Assembly: GCA_902803285.1 (NCBI GenBank)
Contig: CADCPC010000026.1
Span: 1 to 34,839, forward strand
DNA: 34,839 nt
DNA from: an uncultured Erysipelotrichaceae bacterium
GTDB lineage: Bacteria; Bacillota_I; Bacilli_A; RFN20; CAG-826
Reading direction: 5' to 3'
A model generated the notes under the pieces. The model had not been told where the DNA came from, did not search any database, and worked only from the letters and a program-made list of their open reading frames with translations. The position numbers and the translations under genes are program-made. This document shows positions 1,639-16,236 of this stretch, piece after piece; positions within the stretch are counted from its first letter, which is position 1; each line of letters opens with the position of its first letter.

Positions 1639-1668
1639 TTGTTGTATATTTTTAGACAATCATATAAT
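1639..1668 (+). promoter_or_regulatory. Promoter of the opp operon
   Basis: A perfect -10 TATAAT at 1663-1668 lies 18 bases after a partial -35 (TTGTTG, 1639-1644). The predicted transcription start, near 1675, falls inside the small inverted repeat at 1671-1689 and leaves a leader of about 30 bases with a strong Shine-Dalgarno site. Confidence 0.55.
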
Positions 1669-1670
1669 GA

Positions 1671-1689
1671 GCATACTATTTATGTATGC
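1671..1689 (+). promoter_or_regulatory. Small inverted repeat at the opp transcription start
   Basis: GCATAC (1671-1676) and GTATGC (1684-1689) flank seven bases and sit between the -10 box and the ribosome-binding site of oppA. It could be an operator at +1 or a 5' mRNA hairpin that affects stability or translation. Confidence 0.35.
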
Positions 1690-1705
1690 AGAAAGGAGAA
1701 AGTAT

Positions 1706-4177
1706 ATGAGAAAAACATCTAAAGTGATTTTCGGTCTTATGGCTACTTCTCTTCTCGGCTTATCCGCTTGTAATAAGGGACCAAGCATTCCAGAAGATCC
1801 AAAGACTCCTACAGCTTTCTGTTACACTTATATGGATTACACAACTGTATCTCCATCTAACTGGAACGAACTCACCTACCAAGACAATAATGATACACAA
1901 ATCATGTCTCACATTGGTGGAAGCTTCTTCACTTTTAACTACGAATTCGATGCTGATGGCGAAATCGTAGATGGCGGTTTTACTGTTGATTATGATGGTG
2001 CAACTAACTTAGAAGACGTTAGTGAACTTATTGGTAAACAAGCAGGCAGTGGATACGCTTACAAAATTACACTCCGTCACGATTTAAAATGGGATGATGG
2101 CAGCCCAATCAAAGCAGCAGACTTTGTTTATTCTATGAAACAACAATTAGATCCTGCTTACAAAAACTACCGTGCTGATAGTTTCTATAACGGCTCATTA
2201 ATCATTCACAATGCTAAGAACTACGCAAAGATTGGCGATAAAGGCTTCTTCGCATCTACAGACGTTTACGAAGATTATGCATCTGCTGACTTAGAAAACT
2301 TATATTTCCATACAGCAATGCCTGATGAAGATGCAGAAGATGGTTCTTTTGAAGCATCTGACACATTATTCGATAAACAAGTTATCGAACCAGACTACTA
2401 TGCATCTGTCACAAAGAATGGTTTAGTTGCTTGCTTATCTTCTTGGTTCGCATTTGAAGTTCCTTTCACACAAGAAGAAATCGATTCTCTTGAAGGAAAA
2501 ACAGTCAAAGAAATTAAAGAAAGTTCAACTCTTTCTGCAATTTATGACAATGCAATTTCCTATGCTGAAAACTTCTATGGCCCAGCTGGCGAGGACTTAG
2601 CTCTTGTTTGGTGTGTTTCCGAATATGAATACCCAGAAATCAGCTTTGATCAAGTCGGTATTTTCGCTGATGGCGATTACGACTTATACATCGTTTTAGA
2701 TAGTTCATTAGATCTATTAAAACCAGATGGCACATTAAGCTACAAAGCAGCTTACAACTTAAGCTCTTTACCATTAGTTAAAGAAAGCTTATACGAAGAA
2801 TGTAGAGTTGCTCCAGCAACAGAAGGCGCTCTTCCAACTTCTAGATACAATAGTTCAGTTGAAACAAGTGCTTCTTGGGGCCCTTACAAACTCACATACT
2901 TCCAAGCTGGTAAACAATACATCTTGGAAAGAAATGAAAACTGGTATGGCTACAACATGAAAGAATACAAAGGCCAATACCAAACAGACAGAATTGTCTG
3001 TAACACAATCGAAGAATGGAATACTGCATGGTTATCCTTCCAACAAGGTAACATCACAAGCATCGGTATTGATGTTTCTATCTCTCAAGATTACAAATCA
3101 TCTTCCAGAGCAGTCTTCACAGGTGACGACTATGTCGCATCCTTACAATTACAATCTTCTAAAGAAGGTTTAAAGAACCGTGAAACAGCTGGTGTCGATA
3201 AAGAAATGTTATTATACCCTGACTTCAGAAAAGCATTATCCTTAGCTATCGACCGTGCTGATTACACAGCAAAATGTACAACAGCTTCTCAACCAGGCTT
3301 TGGTATCTTCAACGAATACCATTACTATGATGTTGAAAACGCTGGTGTTTACAGACACACAGACGCTGCTAAGAAAGTTATCTGTGAAACTTATGGTGTC
3401 AACATTGATGACTATGATTCATTAGACGAAGCTTATGCGGCAGTTACAGGTTACAACCTCGAATTAGCAAAACAATTAATCAACTCCGCTTATGATGAAG
3501 CTGTTGCAGCTGGTACAATCGCAGCTGGCGACAAAGTTGTCTTAACAGTCGGTGCTGCTGCAGACTCTGAAGCAACAAGAAGACAATTCAACTACTTAAA
3601 GAACGCTTTTGAAACTTTAGCAGTTGGTACAAAACTCGAAGGCAGATTAACACTCGAATTCGATGCTTCATTTGGTAGCAAATGGTCAACAGACTTCCGT
3701 GCTGGTGCTTACGATATCTGTACTGGTGGTTGGTCAGGTGCAGCTTGGAACCCAGGCTACTTCTTATTAGCTTACCTCTCACCAGATTATATGTACTCAA
3801 AAGGCTGGGATACTTCCAAAGCTATGCTTACATATGACATCTATCAAGATGGTTCTGACGTTAGAACAATGTCATTACTTGATTGGTATGATTGCTTAAA
3901 CGACAACGAAGGCGCTGCAATCAACTTATCTGAAGGTCACTATGACACTGACTTAAGATTAGGCTTAATCGCAGCTATCGAAGGCGAAATCTTAAAGGTT
4001 TACTACACAGTACCTTTATACAACTTCTACTCTGCAGCTCTCTTATCTTATAAGGTCAACTACGGCTCAACCACTTATAACACATTCATGGCTTACGGCG
4101 GAATCCGTTATATGACATATAACTATGATGATCTTGCATGGTCATACGTTAAAACACATTTTGATTACAAAGCATAA
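1706..4177 (+). CDS. oppA: Oligopeptide-binding lipoprotein OppA (SBP_bac_5)
   Basis: This is the extracellular solute-binding component of a peptide ABC importer. It has a type II signal peptide with lipobox LSAC, so Cys22 should be lipidated and tether the protein to the membrane. Family 5 solute-binding features include LRHDLKWDDGSPIKAADFVYS, SWGPYKLTYFQAGKQYILERNENWYG and FRKALSLAIDRADY. At 823 residues it is far longer than typical OppA (about 540-600), with extra sequence spread through the domain. I chose the ATG at 1706, not the in-frame ATG at 1667, because it has a strong Shine-Dalgarno (GAAAGGAG, 1691-1698) and the lipoprotein signal begins there. It leads the opp operon, and a hairpin downstream should raise its level relative to the permease genes. 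The peptide length preference cannot be read. Confidence 0.92.
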   Translation: MRKTSKVIFGLMATSLLGLSACNKGPSIPEDPKTPTAFCYTYMDYTTVSPSNWNELTYQDNNDTQIMSHIGGSFFTFNYEFDADGEIVDGGFTVDYDGATNLEDVSELIGKQAGSGYAYKITLRHDLKWDDGSPIKAADFVYSMKQQLDPAYKNYRADSFYNGSLIIHNAKNYAKIGDKGFFASTDVYEDYASADLENLYFHTAMPDEDAEDGSFEASDTLFDKQVIEPDYYASVTKNGLVACLSSWFAFEVPFTQEEIDSLEGKTVKEIKESSTLSAIYDNAISYAENFYGPAGEDLALVWCVSEYEYPEISFDQVGIFADGDYDLYIVLDSSLDLLKPDGTLSYKAAYNLSSLPLVKESLYEECRVAPATEGALPTSRYNSSVETSASWGPYKLTYFQAGKQYILERNENWYGYNMKEYKGQYQTDRIVCNTIEEWNTAWLSFQQGNITSIGIDVSISQDYKSSSRAVFTGDDYVASLQLQSSKEGLKNRETAGVDKEMLLYPDFRKALSLAIDRADYTAKCTTASQPGFGIFNEYHYYDVENAGVYRHTDAAKKVICETYGVNIDDYDSLDEAYAAVTGYNLELAKQLINSAYDEAVAAGTIAAGDKVVLTVGAAADSEATRRQFNYLKNAFETLAVGTKLEGRLTLEFDASFGSKWSTDFRAGAYDICTGGWSGAAWNPGYFLLAYLSPDYMYSKGWDTSKAMLTYDIYQDGSDVRTMSLLDWYDCLNDNEGAAINLSEGHYDTDLRLGLIAAIEGEILKVYYTVPLYNFYSAALLSYKVNYGSTTYNTFMAYGGIRYMTYNYDDLAWSYVKTHFDYKA

Positions 4178-4220
4178 TCTTTAACAACTTTATACTTATA
4201 TCAAATAAAACCATTAATAT

Positions 4221-4265
4221 TCGTGGGGTGGTTTAGGCCACCTCACGATATTTATTCTTTTATTC
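4221..4265 (+). terminator. Intercistronic attenuating terminator between oppA and oppB
   Basis: An 11-base-pair stem (4221-4231 with 4238-4248, one G-U pair) has a six-base loop and is followed by a T-rich tract. It lies 44 bases after oppA and before oppB. In peptide-importer operons such hairpins let more binding protein than permease be made, by partial termination or by protecting the oppA mRNA 3' end. Confidence 0.7.
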
Positions 4266-4274
4266 AAAAGAATA
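4253..4274 (+). promoter_or_regulatory. Second AT-rich hairpin before oppB
   Basis: TATTCTTTT (4253-4261) and AAAAGAATA (4266-4274) are perfect complements around a four-base loop, directly after the intercistronic terminator. It may form an alternative 3' end or an RNase-blocking structure. It is weak because it is nearly all A-T. Confidence 0.35.
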
Positions 4275-4318
4275 ATAATATATCAAAAAAGAATTAATAA
4301 AGAAAGAGGAATTAACTT

Positions 4319-5281
4319 ATGTATATGTTGAAATACATTATGAAGAGGCTTGGCCTTTTAGTGATGACATTCGTTATCATTGAAGTTATTTGCTTTGTCC
4401 TTATTAAAGCTTTACCAATTGTTATTAATGTCGGTATTGGACAAGATAGACAAATCATCATTGCTCAATTAACAGCACGTGGTTATTTCGATCCTATCCC
4501 AGTTCAATTCTGGAATTATTTAAAAGGCATTTTCACCAGAGGAGATTTCGGTATCTGCTACAACTTACCAGAATACCGTAATCAAAGCGTTGTAGAAGTT
4601 TTTAGAAGCAAACTTCCACCAACCTTGTTAATAAATGTTTACTCAAGCTTAATTGCAATTCCAATCGGTATAGCTTTGGGCATTTTCGCAGCACTTAAGA
4701 AAAATAAATGGGAAGACCAAGTTATCTCTACAACAGTTATGTTATTCATCTCTGTTCCTTCCTTCGTTTATGCTTTCTTAGTCCAATACATCTTCTGTTT
4801 CAAATTAGAGTGGTTCCCATTAACCATGTTAGCGGGTTATGACTACTTCTCACCTGATATGTTCCTCAGTATGTTACCAGCAGTCATCTCATTATCATTC
4901 GGATCTATTGCTGGATACGCTAGATATACCAGAGCAGAGCTTACAGAAGTGTTAACTAACGACTATATGCTCTTAGCTAGAACCAAAGGATTAACTAAAG
5001 CACAAGCTACAACCAGACACGCTTTAAGAAACGCAATGGTGCCTATTTTCCCAAGCATCGTTGGTGAATTCGTTTCTGTTTTATCTGGTTCATTAATCAT
5101 CGAAAAGATCTTCGCAATTCCTGGCGTTGGAGGACTATACCTCATGGCCATCAATGCACAAGACTACGATTCATTTATGTTTTTATCAGGCTTCTATATT
5201 TTAATCGGACTACTTGCTTCTATAGTTATCGACTTAAGCTATGGAGTTATTGATCCACGTATCAGAATGGGGGCGAAATAA
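4319..5281 (+). CDS. oppB: Oligopeptide ABC transporter permease OppB
   Basis: This 320-residue integral membrane protein is one of the two channel subunits of the peptide importer. Residues about 8-30 form the first membrane helix. The BPD_transp_1 core has about five more helices and contains the EAA coupling loop (DYMLLARTKGLTKAQATTRHALRNA), which docks on the ATPases. Length and layout match normal OppB/DppB, unlike its partner OppC. The ATG at 4319 follows a purine-rich site, AAAGAGGA. It is separated from oppA by tandem hairpins and from oppC by two bases, so it is cotranscribed with oppCDF. Confidence 0.93.
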   Translation: MYMLKYIMKRLGLLVMTFVIIEVICFVLIKALPIVINVGIGQDRQIIIAQLTARGYFDPIPVQFWNYLKGIFTRGDFGICYNLPEYRNQSVVEVFRSKLPPTLLINVYSSLIAIPIGIALGIFAALKKNKWEDQVISTTVMLFISVPSFVYAFLVQYIFCFKLEWFPLTMLAGYDYFSPDMFLSMLPAVISLSFGSIAGYARYTRAELTEVLTNDYMLLARTKGLTKAQATTRHALRNAMVPIFPSIVGEFVSVLSGSLIIEKIFAIPGVGGLYLMAINAQDYDSFMFLSGFYILIGLLASIVIDLSYGVIDPRIRMGAK

Positions 5282-5283
5282 TC

Positions 5284-7797
5284 ATGAGACCAGAAGAATT
5301 AACAAATCTCCCAAAAGAGAAATTCGTCCTTGTTAACGAAAATAAAAAATTACACGATAAAGAATTAGTTACTAAACCTATCGGATTCTTTAAAGACGCA
5401 ATGCATAGATTTGCAAAGAATAAAGGCTCTATTGTTGGTGCTATCATTATTGCATTATTAGTATTATTTGCAATTGTCGTCCCAATTTTCTCTCAATATA
5501 CCGTTTCATATCAAGACACCTATTACCGTTACACTTTGCCAAAATTATTTACAAGTGAAAACATTGACTTCCTTGATGGCGGTACAAAGAAAACTCTAAA
5601 CGAAGCATCATTCATCTATTATTACAGCATGGGCGCTGAAACAGGTCACAACGCTGTTAAGAGACAACAATATTCAAAGAATGATAAAGATATGTACACG
5701 TTTAGACTTGATACATATCAACAAACAGGTGTTGTCTTCAAGACTGTAACAAAAGAAGAATATGAATCTATTCAAGGGTATCAAGATGAGCACAATGTAC
5801 AAATCATCTACCCAATTACTGATCCATCTTTAAGACCAAGTCAAAATCAAGACAAGAACAACGCTAACTATTGGTACAAAACCAAGGTTAATGGTAGTGT
5901 TACTGTTCCTGATGAATACGTCATTCATGAAGATGGCACAATTACATTCACAAACATCTATCAAGAATATTCGAAACCAGTTCTAGATTCTGTCGCAAAC
6001 GCAACAGAAGCTACTCCTATCGAATTGGTGCCAAAAGAAGATGGCTATGGTATTCTTCTCAACACATTAGTGACAACTGATGAGAATGGCAATGACTTAG
6101 AAACTCCAATCTTTGCTAAGGCTGGATATCTAAGAGTCTATGTTGAAGATGATGTTAACTGTTCTGAAGTTGTTGAAGAAATTGATGATGGTTCAACTTT
6201 CCAATTCAATACAACTTACAACACATTAGTTACCTATTTAACTGGTCATACAGTTCCATCTAAAGACGGTTATCACTATTTCGCATTAAACAGAATTACT
6301 GGAACCGCTGCTAACTTAATTCACATTGATGTTATTGGCTCAGATACTTATCTTCCATTCTATTTATATCAAGATGGTGAAGTCGTAACTTCTCCTGTAG
6401 CAAATCAACAATACTTCTTCTCTGCTAATAGACAAAAATCGTCTGAAAAAGATTATTACGTCAAAAGTATTAATAGAGGAACTATCACATTAGTTGATAA
6501 TAGAAACACCGCTGCAGTATTTACCGCAGAAGAAGTGGAAGGTGGACATCGTATTTACTTACCTGGCCTCACTGCTGGACAAAAGAGTTATGTAACTGCT
6601 GTTGCACAAGGAGATAGGAACAATATTTCGACAAGTATTGTTGCTTCTGCTGCTTCAACATTCCAATTTGATGCTGCTAATCACACATTCAAAATCACTA
6701 TCAATGGACACACAGATACCAGTTATGATGGTGAATATTACTTCTTACTCAACAAAGATACCAAAACTATTTATTTAGGTAAGTCTACTGAAGTTGATGG
6801 CACTAATGTTTTATACTTACCAGTCGTTAATAGTGGTGATTTATCTCCAGTTTCTGCAATTGTTGATCAAGGCACATATAAGATTGGCGACATTATCACA
6901 ACAATTACCGATAACTATTATTACATTAATGGCACTTTCAAGGGTGATAACTATACCTCAAAAATGAGAATAGAAGGTGAAGGCAACTTTAAATACAATT
7001 ACGCTATTAAAAAGGATGGCGCTAACTACGAAATTCGTATTAATTATGCAGAATACTACCTTTATTATCACCACGCTGTCTTACATGATAAAATCAAAAC
7101 AGCACACTTCTTATTTGGTACAACCGCTAATGGACAAGATATCTTTACTTGCTTAGCTAGTGGTGCAAGATTCTCCTTCATCATGGCAATTGCTGTTGCA
7201 GCAGTGAACATGGTTGTCGGTGCAATCTATGGTGCTATTGAAGGTTACTATGGTGGTAAAGTCGACTTAGTCATGGAACGTATTGTTGAAATCTTATCAG
7301 CAGTCCCATTCATGATTGTCATTACCTTACTTAAATATCACATGAGAGGATCTTCTCAAGTCCTCATCTTATTCATCGCCTTCTTCTTGACGGGATGGAT
7401 TGGAGAAAGTGGACTGGTCCGTATGCAGTTCTACCGATTTAAGAACCAGGAATACGTCCTGGCGGCTAGAACACTGGGTGCTAAGGACTGGAGAATCATG
7501 TTTAAGCACATCTTCCCTAACTCTTTAGGAACGATTGTTACAAGCTCCGTCTTAGTCATTCCAAGCATGATCTTCTCAGAAACATCATTATCATATTTAG
7601 GAATTATCAACCTCAATAGTGGTTCGATGACCTCTGTTGGTACATTACTCGCTAATGCACAACCTTACTTAGTCACTTATCCACACATGATATTATTCCC
7701 AGCTATATTCATTTCATTATTGATGCTATGCTTCAACTTATTCGGTAATGGATTACGTGATGCGTTCAACCCATCACTCAGAGGAACGGAGGACTAA
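5284..7797 (+). CDS. oppC: Oligopeptide ABC transporter permease OppC with a giant extracellular insertion
   Basis: This is the second channel subunit of the peptide importer, but at 837 residues it is nearly three times normal length (about 300). The N-terminal cytoplasmic stretch and first membrane helix lie at about 30-72. The conserved entry to the BPD_transp_1 core (FGTTANGQDIFTCLASGARFSF, usually FGTDxxGRDxxSRxxxGxR) comes only at about 607-628. The EAA loop follows (EYVLAARTLGAKDWRIMFKHIFPNS). The roughly 530 residues between should lie outside the cell. They hold two diverged copies of one domain starting STFQFNTTYN (residue 304) and STFQFDAANH (residue 458). The start at 5284 is two bases after oppB. 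A patch of unusual codons covers the EAA loop (7386-7500). Confidence 0.9.
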   Translation: MRPEELTNLPKEKFVLVNENKKLHDKELVTKPIGFFKDAMHRFAKNKGSIVGAIIIALLVLFAIVVPIFSQYTVSYQDTYYRYTLPKLFTSENIDFLDGGTKKTLNEASFIYYYSMGAETGHNAVKRQQYSKNDKDMYTFRLDTYQQTGVVFKTVTKEEYESIQGYQDEHNVQIIYPITDPSLRPSQNQDKNNANYWYKTKVNGSVTVPDEYVIHEDGTITFTNIYQEYSKPVLDSVANATEATPIELVPKEDGYGILLNTLVTTDENGNDLETPIFAKAGYLRVYVEDDVNCSEVVEEIDDGSTFQFNTTYNTLVTYLTGHTVPSKDGYHYFALNRITGTAANLIHIDVIGSDTYLPFYLYQDGEVVTSPVANQQYFFSANRQKSSEKDYYVKSINRGTITLVDNRNTAAVFTAEEVEGGHRIYLPGLTAGQKSYVTAVAQGDRNNISTSIVASAASTFQFDAANHTFKITINGHTDTSYDGEYYFLLNKDTKTIYLGKSTEVDGTNVLYLPVVNSGDLSPVSAIVDQGTYKIGDIITTITDNYYYINGTFKGDNYTSKMRIEGEGNFKYNYAIKKDGANYEIRINYAEYYLYYHHAVLHDKIKTAHFLFGTTANGQDIFTCLASGARFSFIMAIAVAAVNMVVGAIYGAIEGYYGGKVDLVMERIVEILSAVPFMIVITLLKYHMRGSSQVLILFIAFFLTGWIGESGLVRMQFYRFKNQEYVLAARTLGAKDWRIMFKHIFPNSLGTIVTSSVLVIPSMIFSETSLSYLGIINLNSGSMTSVGTLLANAQPYLVTYPHMILFPAIFISLLMLCFNLFGNGLRDAFNPSLRGTED

Positions 7798-7801
7798 TTT
7801 T

Positions 7802-9967
7802 ATGGCAGAAAAGAAATTACAAGTTAAAAAATTACAAGTCTCCTTTAGAACTCAAGCTGGCATTTTAAAGGCTGTTAGAGGTATCTCCTTTGACTTATAC
7901 AAAGGTGAAACTCTTGCAATCGTTGGCGAATCAGGTAGCGGTAAATCCGTTACCTCTAAAGCCATCATTGGTATTCTTAGTGGAAACTCCATCGTTGAAG
8001 GTGGAGAAATCCTCTATGATGGCCAAGACTTATTAAAGATTGATGAAGAGCACTTCCATAAGATTAGAGGCGATAAAATCGCAATGATCTTCCAAGATCC
8101 TCTTTCATCTTTAAACCCAATCATGCGTGTTGGTAAACAACTTACCGAAGCCATGATTCTTAATGGTAGAGCAAGACAAAGAAATTCCCGTAAAGAATTC
8201 AATACTCACCTAGCTTTACTCAAAAAGAATTTAATCGAAAACAATCCTGAAAATAAGGATAAGTACGTGAAAATGTGCAGTGATTTCGATAAATTCTGTA
8301 TCAAATCAACCCAATTAGAAAAAGCATATAACGCGGCTAATTCTACTGCGGTTTCTACTCATACAAATATCGATGAGCTTGTATTCTTACTTGAAAAGAA
8401 TCAAAGAGTGGCCTTAAAAGCACAAGTTGTGACTATCTTAAGAATTCTTCCAAGAACTTATCATCATTATGTTGTTCATGGTGATGAATTAGAGACATTA
8501 ATCCCTGAACTCAACGGATTAGTTAAAGGCAAGAAAGCTATTGATATTGACAAAGTAGCAGTTATTGATGTTTTAAAACGCATCAATGATGTCGTCAAAG
8601 CAGGAATAGATAGAGAACATCCTGACTTCTTCAGATTAGGATATTACAAATTCAGAAACCCTGACTTTGATGAAAAGGGATATACAGGTTCCATCGCTGA
8701 TTTAGATAAGCTGACTCTCGACTTCCTTGATAGTGATTTCATGATTGAATTTATTAAACTTGGCAGCGAAGGAATGCTATATTCCCGTAACAAGAGTTTG
8801 GACGCTAAGAAAGAATTGCTTCCAAAACTCAATGAATTCCGTGACTTGGTGAACTCAATGGAAGTTCTTGATAAAAAGGTTTTATCACCAAGACTTAGAG
8901 AATTAAAAACAGGTGTTAAGCACGCTGTCGATTATGTCAGAGTTAAGAAACACTCTGTCGAATACTCATTTGGTATCTCTGTTTCTCACGAATTTAAACG
9001 TTATTATGAGGGTTTAAGATTAAATCCTAAGAACCTCCGTAAATACGAACAATCAAAAGCTAAATTTGATAAACTCATTGAATCAGGTAAGACACCAACA
9101 TGGAAAGTTATCCCTCCATATCTAGTTGATCTTGAATTAACTAAGAGCAATATCATCAAAATCTTAGATGACTTAATCTATAGATATAACAAAGATATCG
9201 CTTCAACCACCTATGACCCTCATAAGGAAATGATTGAACTTGTCGACTTCTTCAAAGAACAAGCTTCTAGACTTGTCTATAGAGTCACACAAGGTATCGC
9301 TAAAACAAGAGCGATTGAATTATTAAAAGAAGTTGGTATTGCTGAACCAGAAATCAGATATAAACAATATCCATTTGAATTCTCTGGTGGTATGAGACAA
9401 CGTATTGTTATCGCTATCGCATTATCTGCTAACCCAGATATCTTAATCTGTGATGAGCCTACAACCGCTCTTGACGTGACAATCCAATCTCAAATTCTTG
9501 AATTAATCAACAGAATTAAGAAGGAAAGAAATCTTTCAGTTATCTTTATTACTCACGACTTAGGTGTTGTTGCTAACATGGCAGACCGTGTTGCAGTTAT
9601 GTATGCTGGTAAGATTGTCGAATACGGAACAGCTGATGATATATTCTATGATCCAAAACATCCATATACATGGGCCTTATTAGCCTCTATGCCAGATCTT
9701 GATACCAAAGAGAAACTTGAAGCTATTCCAGGAACCCCACCTAACATGATTTATCCTCCTGTTGGTGATGCTTTCGCGGAAAGAAATAAATACGCTTTAG
9801 AAATTGACTTCGAACAAGAGCCACCTCTATTTGAAGTTAGTGAGACTCACTATGCGGCTACTTGGTTATTGCATCCAAATGCCCCAAAAGTTGAGCCACC
9901 AAAAATTATTACTGAGCGTATTGCAAGAATGAAGAAGGAGGTAGAAGACTATGGAAAAGACAGATAG
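7802..9967 (+). CDS. oppD: Oligopeptide ABC transporter ATP-binding protein OppD with a large insertion
   Basis: This ATPase powers the importer on the cytoplasmic side. Walker A GESGSGKS is at about residues 42-49, the Q-loop IFQDPLSSLNP near 96, signature FSGGMRQR near 527, Walker B ILICDEPTTALD near 548 and the H-loop FITHDLG near 583. Normal OppD has the signature near residue 155, so about 370 extra residues sit between Q-loop and signature. They are charged and mostly helical in character. The C-terminal peptide-transporter tail is present, but the usual cysteines are replaced: GDAFAERNKYALEID where relatives have GCPFxPRCxxAxxxC. The start at 7802 has a strong Shine-Dalgarno (CGGAGG); the longer in-frame extension to 7748 overlaps oppC and is rejected. 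It overlaps oppF by 17 bases. Confidence 0.92.
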   Translation: MAEKKLQVKKLQVSFRTQAGILKAVRGISFDLYKGETLAIVGESGSGKSVTSKAIIGILSGNSIVEGGEILYDGQDLLKIDEEHFHKIRGDKIAMIFQDPLSSLNPIMRVGKQLTEAMILNGRARQRNSRKEFNTHLALLKKNLIENNPENKDKYVKMCSDFDKFCIKSTQLEKAYNAANSTAVSTHTNIDELVFLLEKNQRVALKAQVVTILRILPRTYHHYVVHGDELETLIPELNGLVKGKKAIDIDKVAVIDVLKRINDVVKAGIDREHPDFFRLGYYKFRNPDFDEKGYTGSIADLDKLTLDFLDSDFMIEFIKLGSEGMLYSRNKSLDAKKELLPKLNEFRDLVNSMEVLDKKVLSPRLRELKTGVKHAVDYVRVKKHSVEYSFGISVSHEFKRYYEGLRLNPKNLRKYEQSKAKFDKLIESGKTPTWKVIPPYLVDLELTKSNIIKILDDLIYRYNKDIASTTYDPHKEMIELVDFFKEQASRLVYRVTQGIAKTRAIELLKEVGIAEPEIRYKQYPFEFSGGMRQRIVIAIALSANPDILICDEPTTALDVTIQSQILELINRIKKERNLSVIFITHDLGVVANMADRVAVMYAGKIVEYGTADDIFYDPKHPYTWALLASMPDLDTKEKLEAIPGTPPNMIYPPVGDAFAERNKYALEIDFEQEPPLFEVSETHYAATWLLHPNAPKVEPPKIITERIARMKKEVEDYGKDR

Positions 9968-11321
9968 AGAAGTTCTTTTAAAGGTTGATCACCTCAAACA
10001 ATACTTCAAACTTGGAAAACATGAATTACCAGCAGTCGATGACGTATCCTTTGAAATTTACAAAGGCGAAGTCTTCGGTCTTGTTGGTGAATCAGGTTGT
10101 GGTAAAACTACAACAGGTAGAACCATCATCCGTTTATATGACGCGACTGGTGGTAGTGTCTATTTTGATGGCAAAAGAATCGTTGCTGGTGTCAGAGGAT
10201 ATAAAGACGCGATTAAAGCCGCAAAAGCGGAATTTGTTGCTAAAGAAAACGCTCTTAAAGCAGAATTAAAATCTGGCTCCTTAGACGAAGTATCTTATCA
10301 AGAAAGGCATAATGAAAATCTCAATATCTACAAAGATATCGTTGAGAAGAATATGGAAGAAATCAAAAAAGCACGTTTCGACCATAGATACTGCAACCGT
10401 GAATTTGGTAGATTTGAAGCTCAAAAGGTTGATGATAAATATTTACCATTAATTGAAGCAGAAACTATCGAAGCTAAAAAAGGCTATTTGATTAAAGAAT
10501 ATCAAGCAGCCCGTAAACTCGCCTTGAAAGATCGTATTATGAACAAGATTCAAATGATCTTCCAAGACCCAATCGCATCATTAGATCCACGTATGACTGT
10601 TCGCGATATTATCGCTGAAGGATTAGTAATTCGTGGTATCAAAGATAAGAAATACATCGATGAGCAAGTCTATAAAGTCTTAGAGATGGTGGGATTAGTT
10701 CAAGAACACGCAACTAGATATCCTCACGAATTCTCTGGCGGACAAAGACAACGTATTGGTATTGCTAGAGCTATCATTCTTAAACCAGATATGATTATCG
10801 CTGACGAACCAATCTCTGCTCTTGATGTTTCTATTCAAGCTCAAGTCATTAACTTACTAAATGATTTAAGAGATAAGATGGGCTTAACTATTATGTTTAT
10901 CGCTCACGACTTATCAGTTGTTAAATACTTCTCTGACCGTATCGCAGTTATGTATTATGGAAAGATCGTTGAATTAACAACTTCTGATGAATTATTCAAG
11001 CATCCACTTCACCCTTACACAAAATCATTATTGTCGGCTATTCCTCTTCCAGATCCACATTATGAGAAGTTAAGACAAAGAATTACTTATAATCCTTTAA
11101 CCGCTCATGATTATTCTCAAGAGGGACCAACTATGAGAGAAATTCTTCCTGGCCACTTCATTTACTGTAATTCTGCAGAATTTGAAAAATACCAAGAAGA
11201 GATTAAGGCATTAGATGCAAAACAACAATCAGAATCCGAATCAGGAGACGGAGCAAAATCCAAATCTAAGCCAGCAAGAAAAGAAAAAGCTGGAGAAGAT
11301 CAAGAAAGTAAGGAATCCTGA
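9951..11321 (+). CDS. oppF: Oligopeptide ABC transporter ATP-binding protein OppF with an insertion
   Basis: This is the partner ATPase of OppD. Walker A GESGCGKT is at about 46-53, the Q-loop MIFQDPIASLDPRM near 202, signature FSGGQRQR near 261, Walker B MIIADEPISALD near 280 and the H-loop FIAHDLS near 316. About 105 extra, highly charged residues (rich in Lys, Glu and Ala, likely coiled coil, about 75-185) lie between Walker A and the Q-loop, a different place from the OppD insertion. Only one cysteine remains in the C-terminal tail (GHFIYCNS). The extreme C-terminus is a Ser/Lys/Glu-rich low-complexity stretch whose DNA is shared with the next gene. The ATG at 9951 is preceded by AAGGAGGT. 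It ends in TGA, showing that TGA is a stop here. Confidence 0.92.
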   Translation: MEKTDREVLLKVDHLKQYFKLGKHELPAVDDVSFEIYKGEVFGLVGESGCGKTTTGRTIIRLYDATGGSVYFDGKRIVAGVRGYKDAIKAAKAEFVAKENALKAELKSGSLDEVSYQERHNENLNIYKDIVEKNMEEIKKARFDHRYCNREFGRFEAQKVDDKYLPLIEAETIEAKKGYLIKEYQAARKLALKDRIMNKIQMIFQDPIASLDPRMTVRDIIAEGLVIRGIKDKKYIDEQVYKVLEMVGLVQEHATRYPHEFSGGQRQRIGIARAIILKPDMIIADEPISALDVSIQAQVINLLNDLRDKMGLTIMFIAHDLSVVKYFSDRIAVMYYGKIVELTTSDELFKHPLHPYTKSLLSAIPLPDPHYEKLRQRITYNPLTAHDYSQEGPTMREILPGHFIYCNSAEFEKYQEEIKALDAKQQSESESGDGAKSKSKPARKEKAGEDQESKES

Positions 11322-11757
11322 TAGTCTTCTATTAAGATACGGCATCACTGTTGGAATATGTTTAGTGCTCTCATTTATCTTAATTTGGGTATGGGGCATA
11401 TTCGATAACTTCGAAGTCGTAAAAGAGAGGACAAATTGGAACATTAATAGCGAATTAACCAAGAACATGTATATCCTCACCAATTCCACATTTGTTGTTG
11501 GAATAGTGTGTGCAGGATTTGGACTCTTGGTAGTCGCTAGTAATGGTGGAGCATTTGAGATGTTTGTCTACGGAATGAGACGATTCTTCTCCTTATTCCA
11601 AAGAGACGTTAATAAAGTCAAATTTAAAACCTTCTACGATTATCACGTCTATAGAAGTAGTGAACCAAAGCGATCCTTCGCTTACCTACTTATTGTAGGT
11701 GGGGCATTCTTAGCACTTTCTGGGGTGTTCCTGGCGGTTTACTTAAAATATCGTTAA
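11215..11757 (+). CDS. Small three-helix membrane protein downstream of opp (DUF3899-like)
   Basis: This 180-residue protein has a polar, Asn/Gln/Glu/Lys-rich N-terminus of about 36 residues and three predicted membrane helices at about 40-62, 87-110 and 155-177. It resembles DUF3899-type proteins, but I recognise this only loosely. The role is unknown; its place as last gene of the operon suggests a link to the peptide importer. The start at 11215 is preceded by AAGG at a good distance, and no other start lies before the first helix. The gene therefore overlaps oppF by 107 bases in another frame, so both proteins use that DNA for their low-complexity ends. A terminator follows at 11773-11800. 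Confidence 0.75.
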   Translation: MQNNNQNPNQETEQNPNLSQQEKKKLEKIKKVRNPDSLLLRYGITVGICLVLSFILIWVWGIFDNFEVVKERTNWNINSELTKNMYILTNSTFVVGIVCAGFGLLVVASNGGAFEMFVYGMRRFFSLFQRDVNKVKFKTFYDYHVYRSSEPKRSFAYLLIVGGAFLALSGVFLAVYLKYR

Positions 11758-11946: not shown

Positions 11947-14900
11947 TTAGTCTTCTTTCTTCTTTCTTGCTAAGAGTAAGATGACTCCTGCTAATGAGAG
12001 AATGGAAAGAATGACTGAAGTTGTTACGATTTCACCGCCACAACCTTTAGAAGGCTGTGGTTCTGGTTCTGGTTCGACGTGTTCGATAATTGTTAATTCA
12101 ATATTAGCAATCTCATCTTCGAATCTAACAGTAAGAATAATCTTACCTGGTTCAGAAGAATCAAATCCAGTATATGTAGCTTGTGAAGTAACAATCTTAG
12201 AAGAACCATCATCATAGTAAGCAGTGACAGTTAAAGTTGAAGAATCAAACTCTTCTCCAACTTCATAAGTCTTCTTAGTGACAGAAGCTTCAATTCTAGT
12301 TAAGGCTGGTAAGTCGATAATATTGTAACTAACTGTAGTGGACATGCCGTTAACAGTAACAGTTAATGTCTTTGTACCTGTAGTAGAGGAATCAAAACCA
12401 CTATAAGTGACTGTGCCTTCAACTGGACCAGTAACTCCGTTATCGTAGATACCATAAACTGAGATAGTTGATTCATCGAATTTATCACCAATATAGTATG
12501 TATCTTTTGTTAACTGAGCTCCGATTGCAGTAATAGTGTGAGTTTTACTACCTAATGTTACTTTGTAGTGTCCAATCGCACTTTCAAAAGCCACACCACC
12601 AGCAGTAACAGTTAAGCTTGCACTAACTTCGTTTCCTTCTGCATCAATATCAATAACAGAAATATCATGACTGTCATATCCGCCTGGAGTAGCAATAGCA
12701 ACCCACATACTTCCCTTCATTTCGTATGGAGAGTTATTTCTTGTGACTGCTAATGTGTATTCAGTAGTGCTACCAGAAGTAGACTTTGTAACCTTGAAAT
12801 TATGGTTAATTGTGAATTCAGAACTTGAAACAGAGATAATATCTTCTCCATCCACTCTAACTACTGAAGGCATTGTGTTCTTATTTAAAGCAGTTGTGGA
12901 ATAGAAGAATGCGTCTTTCTTTAATTGTTCTTTAGGAATATCAATATAGAATCCTTCTGCATCTTGTTTTGCATCATAAGATTCTTGGGTATTACCAGAA
13001 ACGTTAACAAAACTTGCACCTGCGTTGTCATCCGCTCTAACTCTTAAGAAAGAACCCAAGTCAGTAACAGAATTGATTTGTGGTTTAGCGTTGGTAATGA
13101 CAAAGTCATATGCTTTTGTGTGAACCACATCATCAGTAGTGGTGTATTTGAATTCGAGAACGTATTCGCCTTCTGGATAGAGGACTTTATCATCACCCCA
13201 TAATGGAATGATAGAATACGCTCTATGGCCGATAATACCATTATCAAGATAATCACTTAAAACGTGTGATTTTGCTAATGAGTAATTTGGCTCTTCACCT
13301 TTTTCAGGATCTCCTTCATCACCCCATAATGTGTCAAACATATGGTCATCTCTAACAAGAGACATATCACTCTTCTTATAAATCTTTAATGTATTAGTTT
13401 TAACAGAACGAGTGACATATTGTTGAATGAGAAGTGTATTGCCCATTTGTTCTCCGTCTTTAACGCTATCACCTTGAGCGATATATAAAGTATGGGAATC
13501 ATCTGCGTTGTGTTTAGCACCGATTTCGATACAAGATCTATTGTTATCATCAGCGATTGTTTTAAAATTGCCTTTGTTATAAATCCAGTTAGAAAGTGGG
13601 CTTGTGGATTCTTCCTCTTCCTCTTCCTCTTCTTCATCAGCCCATGTGCTTTGTTTGAAATCACCAAATGCAATCATGGATGCATAATCTGCGTTCTTAA
13701 AGCCCATGACAGTAGCGATATCGTTAACTAAATCAGATGGATAGACTCTGCCAGCTTCTTTTTCAAAGTTGAATGGTTCAACTGGGCTAGCGGCAGCGAC
13801 ATCACCATAATATCCTAAGAATGGAACTGATAAGTTAGTGACATCAGCGTTTTCAAATCTGACAAATCCTTCGATCGGACAAGCATATTCGAAGTAATCT
13901 TCGATAGCTGCTTTTTCTTCTGCTGTTAATTCAACGGTGCCTAAATCGATGTCGTTTGTGCCGACAGGGATAGTTACTGTCTTATCAACAGTTCTTAATA
14001 ATGTATTTCTAAATCCTTGGATTTTTGCATTTTTAACAGCATCAATTTCGGATTCAGCTTTTTCATAAACATAGATATCAGGTCTATAGATATCAATGTG
14101 AGCAGTAAATGTTACTGGTTCGCTACCTTCGTTAGTAGCAGATAATTGGAATTTTAGTGTGCCATTTTTGATGTCATCATTATTTTTCCATTCAATCTTT
14201 GCTTTTCCGCTATTGGCTTCGCTTTCAAGATAAATTTTGCTTTCTAATGCGTTACCAACGTTAGCCATACCAGCACCTTGCACTCTAACAGAAGTTGCAA
14301 CTCCTTTTTCATCATGAAGGATAGTGGTGGTTGACATTGTTCTAGCGTTGACTGTTTTCCAATAGTCAGGATCATCTAAATGTTCGCCAAGTAATAATGC
14401 GACAGCACCTGTGTAGTTAGGAGTGGCCATAGATGTACCGTTCCAATAGTCATATGAAGTAGTAGCTGTAGGATCTAAATTGCCTTTAGAATCTTCATAA
14501 ACTGCACCTTTGACCAACTTACCAGGAGCAGAGATTTCTGGTTTGATTCTTAAATCATATGTTGCACCATCAGAACTAAATGAAGCCATTTGTCCTGCGG
14601 TTGGGTTAGCAGCGTAAACATCTTTTAAGATAGTTAATTTACCACTATCATCGAATTTATCACGATCTTCATATGAGATAGAAACGACAGGAATTGCTGG
14701 AGAAACTCCATCACCAAAGGACATTCTAATAGAACCAGTAGTGTTATTAATAATTGCTAATGCGATAGCACCAGCTTTGTGAGCTGCTAAATATTTTTCA
14801 CCAAAGGAATTTTCACCACGGCTAACAACCGCAACTTTTCCTTGGACATTAAGACCTTTATAGTCAGCAGTAGCACCGTAATTAGGAACTTTTACCCAAT

Positions 14901-16236
14901 CAAATTCGGTTTTAGTGCCACCTTCAGTGATATCATATAAAGCTCTATCTTTTTCATAAATAGTGCTTGATGAAGAAATGACTTGGTCATCATAAGCTAT
15001 GTTATTGCCATTAACTTGGATAGCGTTTGTGAAGAATTCACGGTCAGCTTGGCTAGCACCGACTGACATAACTGATTCTAAGTTTGCAGAGCCAGACATG
15101 ATACCGGTTTCGATCATCTCACTAGTCCATCCTTCATAGGCCGTGCCGTTGAAGAATCCTTTTCCACTGTTACCAGCAGCGTAGTTAGACCAAATACCTT
15201 CTTCTCTTAATTGTTGTAATAAGTTAAAGACTGTTGTGTTTTCACCAAAGTCATTTAAATCACTACCAAATGACATGTTGAGAACATCACATCCTAATTT
15301 AGATGCATCTTCAAGAGCAGCGATAACTGCGGAATCGAAACATCCTGTACTTTGAGTGTGATCTTTCTTTTCTTCTTGTTTTGGATAGTATTCAGTGAAG
15401 ACTTTTAATAACGCTAATTGAGCGTTACTTGCAATACCTTTATAGGTAGGACCATTACCTGCTGCCATAGAAGCAACGTGTAGACCATGGTCAGAGATGC
15501 CTGAATAGACATCGTTATCAGGGAATGCTTTACCTTCGATATAATCGTCATAAGTATCTGTTTCTCCACCGTAATCGTAGAAGAATGGAACCTTATTATT
15601 GAAATATAAGGATGGGACATCAGTAGAAGTCTTAGCATTTAATCCTGATAATCCATCAACTGTAGCTTTGCTTAATTTGGTGCTAACAGTATTTGGTAAG
15701 GCAGTAAAGGTTTCATGAGTGTAGACATTACCATCAACAACGTGGTTAATGAGATATCCAGTATCAAGAATACCAATTAAAATTCCTTCGCCTTTCTTTG
15801 TGTCTGATGGAACATTCATTGTAGTAGCAGAGATGTTTTCTTCGATAACACTGCTTCCTGCACGAGTGATTGTTATAGCTCCATCGAGTGTTTCAATATG
15901 GTGTAATGTGTCATAATCGACATTCTTAACAAAATTAAGTTTTCTAATTGCATTAACTTGGCTTGAAGGTACTTTGAGTACGACAGCGTTTAATAAAGAG
16001 GTGTAACGATCGACAACCTTGAAGTTAGTGGTGACTTCACTTCTAATTAGTGATAAACCGTAATTTTGATAAGCGAGAACTTGTTTATCAGTCATGGACT
16101 TGCTGTAGCCATTGAAGTTAACAATGATTTTGGCGTCTTGTGCTTCTGCTGGTTCACTTTCTTTAGTGACCGCAAGAGAGATGCCACCTACTACAAGAGC
16201 GGATGCTAATAAACCTAAAGTTACAAATTTACGCAT
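11947..16236 (-). CDS. Cell-surface subtilisin-like serine protease (S8 family)
   Basis: This 1429-residue secreted protease should cut extracellular proteins. In order: signal peptide (about 1-33); inhibitor-like propeptide (about 35-115); S8 catalytic domain with Asp158 (GILDTG), His250 (DHGLHVA), oxyanion Asn356 (AAGNSG) and Ser602 (NGTSMATP); a PA domain inserted at about 450-550; Fn3-like and beta-rich regions; two Big_3-type Ig-like repeats near the end, each with a [ST]GFDSS motif; then a Pro/Glu linker, GCGGEIV, one membrane helix and RKKKED. The layout resembles lactocepin/C5a peptidase, but there is no LPXTG motif. A run of nine glutamates near residue 870 is encoded by CTTCCT-type hexamers (minus-strand GAAGAG). 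A strong Shine-Dalgarno (AAAGGAG) precedes the ATG. It converges on opp, so it may supply peptides to that importer. Confidence 0.92.
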   Translation of the reverse strand: MRKFVTLGLLASALVVGGISLAVTKESEPAEAQDAKIIVNFNGYSKSMTDKQVLAYQNYGLSLIRSEVTTNFKVVDRYTSLLNAVVLKVPSSQVNAIRKLNFVKNVDYDTLHHIETLDGAITITRAGSSVIEENISATTMNVPSDTKKGEGILIGILDTGYLINHVVDGNVYTHETFTALPNTVSTKLSKATVDGLSGLNAKTSTDVPSLYFNNKVPFFYDYGGETDTYDDYIEGKAFPDNDVYSGISDHGLHVASMAAGNGPTYKGIASNAQLALLKVFTEYYPKQEEKKDHTQSTGCFDSAVIAALEDASKLGCDVLNMSFGSDLNDFGENTTVFNLLQQLREEGIWSNYAAGNSGKGFFNGTAYEGWTSEMIETGIMSGSANLESVMSVGASQADREFFTNAIQVNGNNIAYDDQVISSSSTIYEKDRALYDITEGGTKTEFDWVKVPNYGATADYKGLNVQGKVAVVSRGENSFGEKYLAAHKAGAIALAIINNTTGSIRMSFGDGVSPAIPVVSISYEDRDKFDDSGKLTILKDVYAANPTAGQMASFSSDGATYDLRIKPEISAPGKLVKGAVYEDSKGNLDPTATTSYDYWNGTSMATPNYTGAVALLLGEHLDDPDYWKTVNARTMSTTTILHDEKGVATSVRVQGAGMANVGNALESKIYLESEANSGKAKIEWKNNDDIKNGTLKFQLSATNEGSEPVTFTAHIDIYRPDIYVYEKAESEIDAVKNAKIQGFRNTLLRTVDKTVTIPVGTNDIDLGTVELTAEEKAAIEDYFEYACPIEGFVRFENADVTNLSVPFLGYYGDVAAASPVEPFNFEKEAGRVYPSDLVNDIATVMGFKNADYASMIAFGDFKQSTWADEEEEEEEEESTSPLSNWIYNKGNFKTIADDNNRSCIEIGAKHNADDSHTLYIAQGDSVKDGEQMGNTLLIQQYVTRSVKTNTLKIYKKSDMSLVRDDHMFDTLWGDEGDPEKGEEPNYSLAKSHVLSDYLDNGIIGHRAYSIIPLWGDDKVLYPEGEYVLEFKYTTTDDVVHTKAYDFVITNAKPQINSVTDLGSFLRVRADDNAGASFVNVSGNTQESYDAKQDAEGFYIDIPKEQLKKDAFFYSTTALNKNTMPSVVRVDGEDIISVSSSEFTINHNFKVTKSTSGSTTEYTLAVTRNNSPYEMKGSMWVAIATPGGYDSHDISVIDIDAEGNEVSASLTVTAGGVAFESAIGHYKVTLGSKTHTITAIGAQLTKDTYYIGDKFDESTISVYGIYDNGVTGPVEGTVTYSGFDSSTTGTKTLTVTVNGMSTTVSYNIIDLPALTRIEASVTKKTYEVGEEFDSSTLTVTAYYDDGSSKIVTSQATYTGFDSSEPGKIILTVRFEDEIANIELTIIEHVEPEPEPQPSKGCGGEIVTTSVILSILSLAGVILLLARKKKED
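13611..13635. repeat. Hexanucleotide CTTCCT repeat coding for polyglutamate
   Basis: About four tandem copies of CTTCCT lie within the protease gene and encode a nine-residue glutamate run. The unit is a multiple of three, so length changes would alter the acidic linker without shifting the frame. Confidence 0.8.

Follow-up and report, generated by a model that had tools for sequence, protein, structure and literature searches.

The oppC gene and its operon

The window, the whole stretch of 34,839 nucleotides that was analysed, carries an opp operon whose oppC gene encodes a permease with a very large segment between its first two transmembrane helices. The features of the operon, and the parts of OppC within it, are listed below with the evidence for each.

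1667-4177, forward: oppA, 836-aa lipoprotein substrate-binding protein, SBP_bac_5 (open reading frame, Pfam)
4319-5281, forward: oppB, normal-size permease of 320 aa (open reading frame, Pfam, NCBIfam)
5284-7797, forward: oppC, permease with a 535-residue ectodomain (open reading frame, Pfam, NCBIfam, relatives)
5422-5490, forward: TM1, residues 47-69, within OppC_N (Pfam, model helix 47-69, hydropathy)
5497-5973, forward: N-terminal part of the base ectodomain, residues 72-230, with the PKxF..F(W/L)DG motif (alignments, model)
5974-6447, forward: predicted beta-trefoil 1, about residues 231-388, boundaries approximate (repeat, model strands, fascin alignments)
6448-6918, forward: predicted beta-trefoil 2, about residues 389-545 (VIA-align match to Symfoil, profile match to a secreted module)
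6919-7101, forward: C-terminal part of the base ectodomain, residues 546-606, with a conserved R..YxEYY (alignments, model)
7102-7776, forward: permease core, TM2-TM6 with the coupling helix, residues 607-831 (Pfam, NCBIfam, model, structural alignment)
7802-9967, forward: oppD ATPase, about 721 aa from the likely ATG at 7802; the frame as listed starts at 7748 (739 aa) (open reading frame, Pfam, NCBIfam)
9951-11321, forward: oppF ATPase, 456 aa, with an insert (open reading frame, Pfam, NCBIfam)
11215-11757, forward: DUF3899 membrane protein, a sixth gene after oppF (Pfam)

The oppC frame encodes 837 residues from an ATG start with no internal stops, and lies beside the genes of OppA, OppB, OppD and OppF, as recognised by Pfam and NCBIfam. 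Its product is an intact permease, the OppC subunit of an ABC importer for oligopeptides. OppC_N was matched at residues 35-83 (45.7 bits, gathering cut-off 23.9) and BPD_transp_1 at residues 649-833 (79.6 bits, gathering cut-off 26.4), and the Pfam scan found no domain in the approximately 560 residues between them. The best-scoring OppC model, Opp3C (NCBIfam NF045475), aligned in two stretches, the larger covering residues 603-833; at 279.2 bits the protein scored below the equivalog cut-off of 450 and is not filed as Opp3C. TM1 and TM2-6 superposed on essentially the entire OppC chain of the E. coli OppBCDF structure (8z21_B) with a Z-score of 24.9 and an rmsd of 2.8 Å over 278/278 residues at 36% identity. 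These matches bore out the sequence-only reading that the first helix and the channel core are split by a large segment, which measures about 535 residues between TM1 and TM2.

An assembly or frame artefact could in principle produce such a gene, the window being a contig from a fragmented genome and its operon being closer to the operons of other genera than to that of its own genus, but this explanation has next to no probability. The same architecture (826-856 aa), free of stops, was found in four independent genomes, and the contig's GdpP (70-83% identity) placed it in its genus. The probability that the 316 trefoil codons stay open by chance, given the base composition, is about 1e-10. 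The artefact reading, named at the outset as a possible refutation, is already refuted as regards the oppC gene.

The G+C content of the operon (1667-11757) was 35-41%, compared with 29-34% for most of the window and 37.5% for the neighbouring S8 gene. With GdpP placing the contig in its own genus and the G+C content of the operon above that of most of the window, it is likely that the operon was acquired laterally and replaced the original one.

Some other genes of the locus also had unusual features. Both OppD and OppF carry large inserts inside their ATPase domains; nearly all relatives have an oversized OppD too (mostly 705-796 aa), similar to NF043079, the Mollicutes OppD model of 561 positions. 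The DUF3899 gene starts before oppF has ended and is conserved across dozens of genomes of Bacilli and Clostridia in their opp loci; it is probably the sixth gene of the operon. Adjoining the operon on the reverse strand (11947-16236) is a gene for a 1429-aa surface subtilase with S8, PA and two Big_3 domains. Distant relatives of this subtilase also lie near opp operons in related genomes, which suggests a link between the S8 protease and peptide uptake.

Topology and predicted fold of the ectodomain

Hydropathy analysis placed TM1 at about residues 43-76 and the next hydrophobic segment from residue 620 onward. No transmembrane helix was found in residues 80-605, where no 19-residue hydropathy window reached 1.3. 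The N-terminus of OppC was net positive (11 K/R and 7 D/E), and since OppC proteins start inside, the insert would lie outside. Hydropathy and the topology of the family thus point to an extracellular segment of about 535 residues, in agreement with the earlier estimate of about 530 extra outside residues; its length and freedom from transmembrane helices come from the hydropathy analysis, and its side from the charge and the family.

The ectodomain is built of two layers. The base ectodomain, about 200 aa, lies next to the membrane; its N-terminal part was predicted with pLDDT mostly above 90 and is also present in OppCs of about 520 aa that have no trefoils. The remaining residues, about 315, were predicted by the model to form two tandem beta-trefoils inserted within the base.

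AlphaFold2 with 44 sequences gave a mean pLDDT of 79.9 for the whole OppC and 85.8 for residues 72-606 folded separately. The ectodomain was folded by itself because the full-length model returned essentially permeases alone in Foldseek and VIA-align. With the ectodomain model, fascin was the top match in Foldseek (E 7e-4), and VIA-align gave Symfoil at a Z-score of 11.0 with an rmsd of 2.7 Å over 118 residues, followed by IL-1β, FGF, lectins and fascin at Z-scores of 9-10; all 50 matches listed by VIA-align were beta-trefoil proteins. In these comparisons the predicted model displayed the three-lobed beta-trefoil topology. The first trefoil was taken to start at OppC residue 231, where the fascin alignments begin (model residue 160), and the second to span about residues 389-519, extending more loosely to 545. 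Fascin is likewise a tandem beta-trefoil protein. The likeness to fascin, IL-1β, FGF and ricin-type lectins is one of fold only, with 7-14% identity and a different context, and the QxW motif of the ricin-type lectins was sought in OppC and was absent. Scans of the insert against Pfam and NCBIfam gave nothing credible, and a sequence search of the PDB gave no match.

The two trefoils were also visible as a repeat in the sequence. Their repeated stretches begin at residues 304 (STFQFNTTYN) and 458 (STFQFDAANH), a spacing of exactly 154, in agreement with the value of about 154 noticed earlier. Local self-alignment of residues 267-377 with 419-547 scored 104, beyond all of 200 shuffles, the best of which reached 58. 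Among the homologues, three of four beat all their shuffles; in the fourth (L068), 2 of 200 shuffles reached its score.

Type I ABC importers are usually described as a lean permease with a separate binding protein, to which the P2 domain of MalF is the well-known exception. The solved OppC/DppC importers, E. coli OppBCDF (8z21), M. tuberculosis OppABCD (8j5q-t) and E. coli DppABCDF (8z1y), have no TM1-TM2 ectodomain comparable to that of the window OppC. The “scoop” of DppABCDF that contacts the substrate-binding protein comprises about 30 residues, is linked to TM1 and belongs to DppB (PMC12136057). MalF of E. coli MalFGK2-MalE, like the window OppC, has a large external domain directly before the TM2-equivalent helix in one permease subunit. 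This domain, MalF-P2, comprises residues 91-271 and contacts MalE (PMC3150292). In the structural alignment, MalF residues 266-272 onward paired with OppC residues 610-619 onward, and since P2 ends at residue 271, the base occupies the MalF-P2 slot; as with P2, the insertion lies between core TM1 and TM2 of a single permease subunit. The two domains differ in that P2 has about 180 residues, whereas the OppC ectodomain has 535 with predicted beta-trefoils. No sequence relation between them was found, and P2 was not among the matches listed by Foldseek and VIA-align for the full-length and ectodomain models, the base being part of a larger query in each. From its position and conservation, the base may be a MalF-P2-like domain that docks or caps OppA.

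Distribution and origin of the trefoil pair

Enlarged OppC is widespread among the relatives. In a survey of 296 genomes of the class, the 150 best-scoring Opp3C-type matches listed, with frames measured from stop to stop and several matches per genome, comprised 44 frames of at most 380 aa, 26 of 381-439 aa, 42 of 440-599 aa, 36 of 600-799 aa and two of at least 800 aa. An oversized OppC is a class-wide trait, and the slot between TM1 and TM2 is a class-wide site of growth. A scan of named genomes yielded 80 loci, four of which encoded OppCs of 826-856 aa (metagenome-assembled genomes called Erysipelotrichaceae or Bacilli). More than 70 others, from Bacilli, Mollicutes and Clostridia MAGs, had OppCs nearly all of 513-546 aa. 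At least 70 genomes of Bacilli and Clostridia encode an OppC of about 520 aa with a base of about 200 aa. The short type shares the base ectodomain and lacks what corresponds to window residues ~206-548, as seen in its close homologue G056. The comparison of OppC lengths in related genomes, proposed as a check in the sequence-only reading, thus showed the 826-856 aa form in four genomes against a background of general enlargement.

When a tree was built from the alignment columns common to both types, the long OppCs, five in number with that of the window, formed one branch (support 96*) nested within the short type. The simplest account of this single nested branch is that the trefoil pair, roughly 315 residues, was acquired only once, in one lineage of Bacilli. 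Besides the window, at least four genomes have the trefoil-bearing OppC. In the genus to which the window belongs, the usual OppC is a different one of 730-760 aa, from a type that ranges over 640-760 aa, and its ectodomain shares with that of the window only the PKxF..FWDG motif after TM1. This type and the other long OppC ectodomains (G166, G324 and others) were considered as trefoil-bearing and rejected: two module profiles were negative, and hhalign against the window ectodomain recovered the short PKxF..FWDG motif only. By these profile comparisons they are separate expansions. No homologue of the trefoil pair was found in phage records, and a literature search of incomplete coverage returned nothing relevant on OppCs with large ectodomains or on permeases with trefoils.

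Within the same order, the trefoils of OppC have relatives in proteins that are exported. The first weak matches of the insert in relatives were three lipoproteins, one an endonuclease I, one with an OB fold and one metalloprotease-like. Profile searches added further carriers, often with tandem pairs, as in OppC, in proteins bearing Big_2 domains; examples of carriers are L050 (the endonuclease I protein), L051, L151, L154, L155 and L161. A profile built from secreted proteins only, free of OppC, placed the trefoil-bearing OppCs on top (window residues 371-496, E 3e-9). Trefoil-bearing OppCs again came first with a second profile, grown from a single module outside OppC (L069, E 2e-6; window, E 7e-5); the independence of these profiles is partial, since the secreted modules were originally found through an OppC-based search. 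The profile matches showed that the OppC trefoils are homologous to the module of the secreted proteins. The carriers differ in that the secreted ones are exported lipoproteins or enzymes and OppC is a membrane transporter. The secreted module is about 120 residues long, is often tandem and accompanied by Big_2 (L154, L155, L151, L176), and has no Pfam or NCBIfam model, scans of the module alone against both collections giving nothing credible. It is a candidate for a new beta-trefoil family, and the OppC trefoils mark this family.

The proposal that the ectodomain grew by domain duplication was therefore right in part. The duplicated unit is real, but of the 535 residues no more than about 315 belong to it; the others form the base ectodomain, which is older and occurs, without any duplication, in 70 or more relatives, and the unit itself is shared with secreted proteins. 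An in-situ duplication of the two repeats is weakly favoured over the import of a ready-made pair, with tree support of 80/78, which is too weak to decide.

Possible roles of the two layers

Sequence identity within the trefoil clade differed greatly between the parts of OppC, being 83-91% in the permease core, 44-73% in the base (residues 72-205) and 19-49% in the trefoils. In the trefoils, Tyr, Gly and Asp positions were kept, and the two copies were present in an open frame in 5/5 genomes. Between the window and its relatives, the trefoils were 21-25% identical and OppA 51-56%. The OppAs that accompany trefoil-bearing OppC (L067, L069) had 834-861 aa, those that accompany trefoil-free OppC had 808-851 aa, and both were 51-56% identical to the window OppA. 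A co-growth of OppA with the trefoils was tested and found no support, since the identity of OppA and, except in L066, its length were the same with or without them.

The ectodomain may act in two layers, a reading to which we give about an even chance. The base, which is old, conserved and adjacent to the membrane, would most likely touch or cap OppA during the hand-over of peptide. The trefoil pair inserted into it would be an outward-facing, fast-evolving putative binding module, most likely holding the importer near an extracellular ligand such as a glycan, a wall polymer or a peptide source. A binding module that faces the environment is favoured because the trefoils diverge fast, are akin to exported proteins and would lie outside; against the two-layer reading, fast divergence would also be expected of a passive spacer under relaxed constraint. 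As QxW is absent, a sugar as the ligand of the trefoils is a guess.

The whole ectodomain, trefoils included, could instead be a docking platform for OppA, an enlarged MalF-P2 in which the trefoils add contacts. It occupies the same topological slot as MalF-P2, and OppA is oversized in these lineages (808-861 aa, one 1118 aa). We consider this unlikely, because OppA has equal length and identity beside trefoil-bearing and trefoil-free OppC, and the pace of divergence is far higher in the trefoils than in OppA. With OppA alike in both cases, its docking is unlikely to require the trefoils. The suggestion that a permease-borne external domain helps to dock OppA is plausible for the base, given the MalF-P2 slot, and is weakened for the trefoils by the unchanged identity of OppA.

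Another reading sees in the trefoils a spacer or shield that is passive, has little specific function and is tolerated by a permissive loop; in our judgement it is quite unlikely. Unrelated inserts have grown at the same slot in many lineages of the class, and the divergence of the trefoils is very fast. Against a mere spacer speak the open two-copy arrangement and the Tyr/Gly/Asp positions kept at so low an identity, and the reuse of the module in other exported proteins.

The beta-trefoil is a common ligand-binding fold, and here it would be carried by the importer itself, next to a gene for an extracellular S8 protease. These points would suit trefoils that bind the peptides or glycopeptides to be transported and pass them on to OppA or the channel, so that OppC would be a second subunit capturing substrate; with the QxW motif absent, we find this improbable. 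In a broader form, a permease-borne lectin-like pair would capture an extracellular ligand (glycopeptides, mucin or wall polymer) and the loop would be a general socket for capture domains. This form is also unlikely to be correct; if it were, ligand capture would no longer depend on the binding protein alone.

The same OppC loop has been enlarged repeatedly across one bacterial class, and one lineage has added a predicted beta-trefoil pair. If the ectodomain docks OppA or binds ligand, the series of OppCs of about 300, 520 and 840 aa could test how importers gain substrate capture. The exceptional OppA of 1118 aa (L066, 3555-6911) has three Big_3-like Ig repeats, read by eye, between its lipobox and its substrate-binding domain.
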